From assembly GCF_000425465.1 (NCBI RefSeq), contig NZ_AUDM01000003.1:1-64000 (forward strand): DNA of 64,000 bases, given 5' to 3'. Position 1 is the stretch's first letter; each line of letters opens with the position of its first letter. Both the position numbers and the translations under genes were made by a program. Below are positions 41,310 through 41,695 of the stretch, piece by piece. The notes below the pieces were generated by a model. It ran no database searches. It was not told the origin of the DNA and saw only the letters and a program-made list of their open reading frames with translations. The stretch is from Flavobacterium filum DSM 17961 (lineage in GTDB: Bacteria; Bacteroidota; Bacteroidia; Flavobacteriales; Flavobacteriaceae).

Positions 41310-41339
41310 AAAAATAAAACCTCCCGTTTGGAAGGTTTT
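41310..41339 (-). terminator. Terminator downstream of the tRNA
   Basis: On the minus strand AAAACCTTCC pairs with GGGAGGTTTT (one wobble) around AAAC, followed by ATTTTTTA. It starts 2 nt after the tRNA 3' end. Confidence 0.75.
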
Positions 41340-41340
41340 G

Positions 41341-41414
41341 TGGTCCCACTTGGGCTCGAACCAAGGACCACCTGATTATGAGTCAGGTGCTCTAACCAAC
41401 TGAGCTATAGGACC
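41341..41414 (-). tRNA. tRNA with CAT anticodon (elongator Met or Ile2)
   Basis: The minus-strand sequence folds as a 74-nt cloverleaf: acceptor GGTCCTA with TGGGACC and discriminator A, D-arm AGCTCAGTTGGTTAGAGC, anticodon arm CCTGA-CTCATAA-TCAGG with anticodon CAT, and T-arm CTTGGTTCGAGCCCAAG. The CCA end is not encoded. An elongator Met or a lysidine-modified Ile2 tRNA both fit; the acceptor is not typical of initiator Met. Two damaged copies lie just upstream in the transcription direction. Confidence 0.92.
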
Positions 41415-41428
41415 ATTATATTTCTTTT

Positions 41429-41489
41429 ACCACCTGTCCCGATAGCTATCGGGAGAGTCAGGTGCTCTAACCAACTGAGCTATAGGACC
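41429..41489 (-). pseudogene. Broken tRNA copy with palindrome in the anticodon loop (copy 2)
   Basis: The first 35 nt of the CAT tRNA (41455-41489) match exactly. Then, in place of the 5-nt ATAAT of the anticodon loop, there is the perfect palindrome TCCCGATAGCTATCGGGA (41437-41454), followed by the 3' anticodon-stem strand ACCACCTG (plus strand, 41429-41436). The T-arm and 3' acceptor are replaced by AT-rich sequence. It cannot make a functional tRNA. Confidence 0.9.
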
Positions 41490-41503
41490 ATTATATTTCT
41501 TTT

Positions 41504-41564
41504 ACCACCTGTCCCGATAGCTATCGGGAGAGTCAGGTGCTCTAACCAACTGAGCTATAGGACC
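41504..41564 (-). pseudogene. Broken tRNA copy with palindrome in the anticodon loop (copy 3)
   Basis: This is identical to copy 2 at an offset of exactly 75 bp, including the AT-rich spacer. The palindrome is at 41512-41529. The two units plus the intact tRNA form a three-member tandem array. Confidence 0.9.
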
Positions 41565-41695
41565 GGCCTAGAGAGTGCAATATTACTACTATTTTTGTTT
41601 TACTCAAAATATAAATTAATTTTATTGCTGACTTTCCTTTTGATAATCCGAAACAACATCTCAAATTGTTGATTTAGAATTAGTCAAAAAGTACT

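Follow-up and report, generated by a model that had tools for sequence, protein, structure and literature searches.

Why does a tRNA gene that is probably essential stand behind two broken copies of itself, each with a palindrome in the anticodon loop? The question is raised by a short array in the window, by which we mean the whole stretch of 64,000 nucleotides of Flavobacterium filum DSM 17961 analysed here (contig NZ_AUDM01000003.1, positions 1 to 64,000). The first-pass annotation had described two identical 75-bp units, with a palindrome in place of ATAAT, upstream of an intact CAT tRNA gene, and repeat analysis and ARAGORN both bear this description out. As origins it had offered a palindrome insertion followed by tandem duplication, a decoy for tRNA-cutting toxins and an assembly artefact.

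We consider it highly probable that a tRNA-gene homing element left this array as its scar, with the working and the history proposed below. The array is not a lone oddity, as the same junction and the same kind of hairpin recur at many other tRNA genes.

Anatomy of the array

The array occupies 41,316-41,640 and reads on the minus strand in the order of leader, half tRNA, palindrome, stub and spacer, half tRNA, palindrome, stub and spacer, intact tRNA and terminator-like hairpin. Its 75-nt direct repeat lies at 41380-41454 and 41455-41529 with 100% identity, and a further 35-nt copy lies at 41530-41564. On the minus strand, each 75-bp unit comprises tRNA nt 1-35, the 18-bp palindrome, CAGGTGG and a 15-nt spacer. 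The copy number of two units is as assembled in a draft genome of 50 contigs.

The native leader at 41565-41640 is promoter-like, with TAATATTGC about 20 nt before the first copy. Similar leaders of the TAATATTGC type also precede the CAT tRNA in several relatives, and one with hardly any change stands ahead of the intact tRNA in the orthologous locus L339 described below. The two tRNA 5′ halves at 41530-41564 and 41455-41489 both match nt 1-35 of the intact tRNA at 100% identity. The palindrome TCCCGATAGCTATCGGGA follows each of them, at 41512-41529 and 41437-41454, and replaces ATAAT of the intact gene right after C34 of the CAT anticodon.

Behind the palindrome, the broken units (41490-41511 and 41415-41436 for these parts) contain the stub CAGGTGG at 41505-41511 and 41430-41436 and the spacer TAAAAGAAATATAAT at 41490-41504 and 41415-41429, and nothing else of the tRNA, its 3′ half being absent. 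The spacer has no counterpart that we could see in the L339 locus. The intact CAT tRNA at 41340-41414, the single intact tRNA of the array by ARAGORN, scores 72.6 bits with the Rfam tRNA model. A terminator-like hairpin with a T run closes the array at 41316-41339.

The 35-nt half, searched with up to 2 mismatches, occurs in its own genome only at the three array sites; of the other 59 genomes searched, 39 have a single match and 20 have none. The CAT tRNA is an elongator Met or an Ile2 tRNA and is probably essential. As this pattern search found the intact gene as the sole copy of its kind in the genome, transcription of a probably essential tRNA would have to cross two broken copies if it starts from the shared leader.

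Within the window, the palindrome with up to 3 mismatches occurs at the two array sites and nowhere else (mean of 0.02 in 100 shuffles). A six-frame search of the window found no GIY-YIG ORF, so the link from the array to a nuclease element comes through comparison with other loci. We class the window as a scar and not as a working element.

The CAT junction in other genomes

We scanned 84,980 species for the junction GACTC[TCCCGA N2-10 TCGGGA]CAGGTGG and obtained 35 junctions in 24 stretches. As many as 20 of the 35 follow a small GIY-YIG nuclease ORF, intact or fragmented, at a distance of no more than 160 nt. Seven stand ahead of an intact CAT tRNA (L321, L322, L324 twice, L325, L329 and L330), and a tRNA 5′ half as in the window is recognised in four of these (L321, L324 twice and L330), the remaining three being more altered. 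Hence the layout of 5′ half, hairpin, stub and AT-rich spacer ahead of an intact tRNA recurs in L321, L324 and L330. Another four junctions have a tRNA 3′ end with no GIY-YIG ORF found, and the last four fall in no class (L328, L334 twice and L338). The window junction itself is shared with L339 and L337.

The closest relative found is the Flavobacteriales MAG UWPOB_FLAVO1, whose locus L339 is orthologous to the window over more than 7 kb (96.3% over 5132 bp and 92.5% over 2394 bp). Its order is leader, intact tRNA, terminator T1, GIY-YIG ORF, AGCACCTGACTC[hairpin]CAGGTGG...GGGACCAC and terminator T2. The 38 bp around its hairpin are identical to both window units, and its T2 is the terminator of the window. 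Seen side by side, the two loci would be what is left of a single two-sided insertion, each having kept the part that the other lacks.

Target sites are found both occupied and empty among relatives. Loci of tRNA-Val occur with and without a GIY-YIG gene. At the CAT locus, L339 has the gene and none was found in the 20 CAT loci L001-L020, which include that of the window.

A tRNA-linked family of GIY-YIG genes

For a survey, we built a profile (A1) from 18 tRNA-linked proteins and called an ORF tRNA-type at 75 bits or more. The non-redundant set has 129 such ORFs, at least five of them from loci chosen for the palindrome, and a tRNA lies within 260 nt upstream on the same strand in 90. The lower-scoring small GIY-YIG proteins of the same genomes are, unlike these, not tRNA-linked, with a tRNA upstream in 4 of 60, in a group that includes decayed fragments of the tRNA type. 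Because A1 was made from tRNA-linked proteins, the label is partly circular, and a set drawn from the score list was therefore counted apart. Its source was a list of about 150 places, of which 30 were already loci and 59 were added, while arrays already sampled and one contig-edge place were skipped. Among its 87 ORFs, 67 have a tRNA upstream and 78 a remnant, and 74 of these 78 remnants contain an inverted repeat.

The family layout is tRNA, T1, ORF, partial tRNA and T2, often in tandem, for example at a tRNA-Pro with five ORFs. The partial tRNA was found behind 116 of the 129 ORFs; for 11 none was found, and two lie too near a contig end. The upstream tRNA and the remnant have the same isotype in 78 of 81 pairs. 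In the three discordant pairs, the upstream calls are hairpin-bearing pseudo-copies (L212 and L220) or the remnant seems assigned to a wrong tRNA (L215).

The family is spread across the phylum, being found at E 1e-18 in 90 of 247 genomes and in 58 of 121 genera. At the more permissive limit of E 1e-12, which lets in the other small GIY-YIG group as well, 301 of the 398 genomes of the genus have a match.

A hairpin-bearing 5′ copy, as in the window, stands ahead of 16 of the 83 intact Val, Ala and Asn tRNAs that have a GIY-YIG ORF behind. It begins at the first bases of the tRNA in 14 of the 16, and 12 of these 16 loci carry a downstream hairpin copy too. For the other 67 no upstream copy was found, so the two-sided structure may have arisen secondarily by duplication.

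Tandem arrays of five or six similar GIY-YIG genes with a period of about 350-380 bp were seen in L122 (G022 C1:180300-184500), L123 (G007) and G637 (C1:541830-543977). In L122, a tRNA-Pro remnant and a terminator stand behind each gene of the array. The genome of the window has an open tRNA-type GIY-YIG ORF of its own behind a tRNA-Phe (L119, C10:142689-143062). Its remnant stops after GGTTC, where relatives have the hairpin, and unrelated sequence follows.

Hairpins in the tRNA remnants

The remnants were compared with 1724 random control windows, matched in length and drawn from the same loci. A perfect inverted repeat that has a stem of at least 6 and occurs in no intact tRNA was found in 109 of 116 remnants and 109 of 1724 controls; one of these remnants, L262, was counted through another inverted repeat, its own hairpin lying outside the tested region. 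With a stem of at least 7, the counts are 94 of 116 and 44 of 1724, and for hairpins of the CCG..CGG type 106 of 116 and 36 of 1724. A 40% G+C filter, which hid TTCCGAT hairpins, gives 94 of 116 against 52 of 1232, and the count without the filter is 109 of 116 against 285 of 1728; the clean counts are those with 1724 controls. The seven remnants lacking the repeat have a decayed hairpin (L167, L267, L293 and L296) or a tested region that ends short of the hairpin (L131 and L257), or belong to the tRNA-Phe locus L119.

The hairpin sequence is variable (TCCCGATAGCTATCGGGA, CCCCGAAAGCTTTCGGGG, TTCCGATTTTTCATCGGAA, TCCGCCGTGGCGGA and others), while its position, given as the first tRNA base after the hairpin, is recurrent. 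It is nt 48 for fMet in 4 of 4 ORFs (3 loci), nt 46 for Pro in 11 of 11 (4 loci, two being overlapping fetches of one array) and nt 62 for Phe in 5 of 8, with 3 not placed. For Ala, it is nt 45 in 19 of 27, with one only at 63 and 7 not placed, and for Val nt 44-46 in 32 of 37, with 5 not placed. For Asn, it is nt 51 in 26 of 35, with 3 at 56-57, 2 only at 63 and 4 not placed. The three Asn remnants with the hairpin at 56-57 (L172, L174 and L294) have proteins in a separate and well supported clade of four, and for the fourth protein, L285, no remnant was found.

Among the 12 distinct variants of the Asn stems, 3 of 7 pairs show changes on both sides, a value reached in 18 of 500 shuffles. The covariation score, 0.335 against 0.136 when shuffled, was reached by none of 500 shuffles. 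These stems show no excess of further pair types, a count that 401 of 500 shuffles reached. The hairpin pairing is thus kept, by selection or by template switching. As covariation within perfect palindromes can come from template switching, it needs no selection.

Outside the genus, 13 loci were inspected by eye. A clear hairpin is present in six (L304, L305, L310, L312, L314 and L319) and an imperfect one in L309. The right arm alone lies next to the ORF end in L303, L313 and L315, and no hairpin was seen in L316, L317 and L318.

Two variant arrangements were met on the way. In L129 (G346, 2344-2830), L130 (G106, 1185-1668) and L262, a hairpin takes the place of the variable loop in full-length tRNA-Asn copies, giving the look of a long variable arm, and in L129 and L130 such copies lie in arrays beside intact ones. 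In L270 (G295, near 1341), a hairpin is nested in the loop of another hairpin within a tRNA-Phe remnant, as TCCCG[TCCCGAAGCTTCGGGA]TCGGGA.

The nuclease protein

A tree of 118 of the 129 proteins, with duplicates, short and unlabelled ones left out, needs 8 changes of tRNA isotype, where the minimum possible is 7 and the shuffled mean 66.9. The Ala, Phe and fMet proteins form one group each, and Val, Asn, Pro and Asp take two or three changes. The single CAT protein (G305) lies within the Asn group on a long branch.

Changes in the nuclease ORF are under strong purifying selection. Among ORFs of equal length, 32 pairs were chosen greedily, and dN/dS lies below 1 in all 32 of them, with a median of 0.11. 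The Y, Y, G, R and E columns of the GIY-YIG site are kept in 128-129 of the 129 proteins. The match to PF01541 is over the cut-off, with E 2.0e-11 for the protein on contig C10 of the own genome. Weaker are the NCBIfam matches to group I intron endonucleases, sub-threshold for 2 of 4 proteins, and a single PHROGs match to an endonuclease for one of 3 proteins.

By sequence, the nearest solved structures are UPF0213 GIY-YIG proteins and SLX1, at E 2.4e-12 for 1zg2, 1.6e-10 for 1ywl and 3.5e-5 for SLX1. SLX1, a structure-specific nuclease, has a further domain and a partner. A phage origin was considered and rejected, as one protein of the Asn type had no match in 50,697 phage records.

Terminators and the cassette

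The T2 of the tRNA-Val locus L161 closely resembles the terminator of the GIY-less tRNA-Val genes L181 and L186, and the T2 of L146 that of the GIY-less L190, L192 and L200. The T1 type before the ORF is common to L125, L146 and L161. At L146 and L161, a native-like T2 behind the remnant and a common T1 together fit a cassette that entered the tRNA gene and displaced its native end. The terminator evidence is mixed, as the L125/L161 type of T1 is also seen behind tRNA-Val in L185, L195 and L206, where a quick test saw no GIY-YIG gene, although L185 may hold a decayed one and L206 was masked. The tandem cassettes that we read take about 350-400 bp per unit, and their one small ORF is the GIY-YIG gene and not an integrase.

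The palindrome outside tRNA genes

Counting the palindrome over the whole genome, as the first-pass annotation had proposed, gives five exact copies of TCCCGATAGCTATCGGGA, two of them in the array. The relative G006 has 40, and 18 of 60 genomes have at least one. The palindrome therefore behaves as a dispersed repeat in having many identical copies at unrelated sites. Its insertion is however not independent of the host gene, as the position in the remnants tracks the isotype and the protein clade.

A pattern of a tRNA D-arm followed by the palindrome matches in 21 of 398 genomes of the genus. By reading, 11 of the 21 matches are tRNA remnants, mostly of tRNA-Asn and some in tandem, with one other CAT remnant. 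A small GIY-YIG ORF is nearby in six of the palindrome loci read (L059, L060, L067, L068, L076 and L079).

We also considered the palindrome as a general seeker of hairpin loops. This was rejected, as a flanking stem of at least 6 occurs at 2 of 51 distinct non-tRNA sites, against a shuffled mean of 2.4. In 4 of 13 loci searched (L027, L028, L032 and L039), the palindrome lies inside or adjoins a match to Flavo-1 RNA (RF01705).

A homing model for the array

The model draws on the anatomy, the isotype linkage, the recurrent hairpin positions, the purifying selection and the orthologous nuclease locus, all of them read from DNA. A complete element would have on its left the tRNA 5′ half, a hairpin, a short 3′ stub, an AT-rich spacer, an intact tRNA of the same kind and T1. 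On its right would follow the GIY-YIG nuclease gene, a short 5′ stub, a hairpin, the tRNA 3′ half and T2.

The nuclease would cut the cognate tRNA gene in one loop, which for the CAT tRNA would be the anticodon loop just after C34. Donor-templated repair would then copy the cassette into the break, splitting the host tRNA gene, while a working tRNA would arrive with the cassette. The hairpins would fill the cut site in both halves, and we propose that this keeps the halves from a second cut and from maturing into tRNA.

Recombination between the repeated tRNA parts may later trim one side. L339 would have lost the left half and kept the nuclease. The window would have lost the right side, namely T1, the nuclease and the right half, so that its intact tRNA now directly precedes a terminator equal to T2 of L339. 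We infer that its left unit was duplicated after the loss of the nuclease.

Some observations count against the model. The presumed target site is still present in the intact tRNA that lies next to the nuclease gene. T1 is not uniform, as L104, L124 and L167 have other sequences. Moreover, G006, with its 40 palindrome copies at non-tRNA sites, has no strong tRNA-type GIY-YIG match (best E 1.4e-13).

A wider reading is possible but tentative, and we would not yet favour it. The loci may represent a phylum-wide class of mobile elements inside tRNA genes, in which a structure-specific, SLX1-like GIY-YIG nuclease works with hairpins as the cassette ends. A whole replacement tRNA would let an essential gene be split harmlessly, and the hairpins would be functional ends or target marks under selection.

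Other explanations of the array

The array could instead be neutral decay, in which a redundant tandem tRNA copy took up a dispersed palindrome and was duplicated again, the GIY-YIG genes nearby being incidental. The dispersal of the palindrome in the genus suits this, and so do the identical and hence young tandem copies. One of the courses that the first-pass annotation had offered, palindrome insertion and then tandem duplication, survives to this extent, as the palindrome is in the anticodon loop, the unit is duplicated and the palindrome is dispersed in the genus. The insertion was however not a random one, since the junction recurs in a GIY-YIG/tRNA element across the phylum. Random insertion would scatter, whereas the positions follow isotype and protein clade, the junction is the same across genera with more than half of its cases behind a GIY-YIG ORF, and CCG..CGG hairpins are far more frequent in the remnants than in the control windows. 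Already weakened by the recurrent positions and the orthologous GIY-YIG locus L339, neutral decay is unlikely.

A role in RNA has a slimmer chance still. The hairpin-bearing copies would be made as RNA and serve as decoys or resistant tRNAs against tRNA-cutting nucleases, and the GIY-YIG protein might itself act on tRNA. The copies stand behind a tRNA leader and hence are probably in the tRNA transcript, ARAGORN recognises as tRNA some full-length Asn copies in which the hairpin forms a long variable arm, and the hairpins occupy loops that tRNA nucleases can cut. Septu, for one, is reported to cut the variable loop of tRNA-Tyr (PMC13096335). Yet the window units lack the tRNA 3′ half and most downstream remnants the 5′ part, and the window and L339 differ by a cassette at one locus, which points to insertion or loss of DNA. 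The GIY-YIG enzymes known to us act on DNA. Nothing that we found requires the toxin decoy of the first-pass annotation, and we give it just as little credence.

An assembly artefact, also raised there, would be easiest to imagine in a draft of 50 contigs. The junction, however, is present in the assemblies of the close relative, of another genome of the genus and of other genera, and in L324 the upstream unit is likewise duplicated. Arrays of hairpin-bearing tRNA copies also occur in genomes of one contig, such as G346 and G412. As the junction recurs in other assemblies, we judge an artefact very unlikely and set it aside in favour of the homing element.

Relation to known systems

In the phages T4 and T6, the free-standing GIY-YIG homing endonuclease SegB is encoded in a tRNA region. 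It is reported to cut inside tRNA genes and to cause a tRNA segment to be amplified in tandem (PMC13096335; PMC2988022). The likeness is a small GIY-YIG nuclease gene beside tRNA genes. The reported SegB motif RAWTSGAAC reads GTTCSAWTY on the opposite strand, and this T-loop stretch is interrupted here by the hairpins of Phe and by several second hairpins. Unlike SegB, the family here is chromosomal, in Bacteroidota and of about 80-100 aa, and its relatedness follows the tRNA isotype. It also differs in the whole tRNA lying inside split tRNA halves at some loci and in the hairpins at recurrent positions.

Two other kinds of repeat or element invite comparison. REP- and HIP-type repeats are dispersed palindromes, as is the 18-bp palindrome here, but the hairpin in the tRNA remnants varies in sequence and recurs in position. 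Integrase-type elements integrate at tRNA genes and restore their 3′ end, so that targeting of a tRNA gene and restoration of tRNA function are common to both. The short cassette here, in contrast, has no room for an integrase and restores a whole tRNA gene, and its direct repeats are tRNA stubs around a hairpin.

Among the matches listed in a search of the open-licence literature, we found no description of a chromosomal, isotype-specific GIY-YIG family with a cassette tRNA between hairpin-marked halves. Besides the work on SegB and T4, no title among them concerned a chromosomal tRNA-linked GIY-YIG family or hairpin-bearing split tRNAs.

If the homing model is true, the hairpin-marked split tRNA genes seen throughout Bacteroidota were left by a mobile element that is common, has apparently not been described before, and both cuts and replaces essential tRNA genes. 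Such an element would be a chromosomal counterpart to the SegB-driven tRNA amplification in phages and would explain both the broken tRNA copies and the tandem arrays of small nuclease genes. It would also offer short, testable substrates for the target choice by a small GIY-YIG enzyme.

As to taxonomic range, either a binning error or a transfer may lie behind L343, a CAT-type element with a GIY-YIG ORF on a contig filed under a Limnohabitans MAG, outside Bacteroidota.
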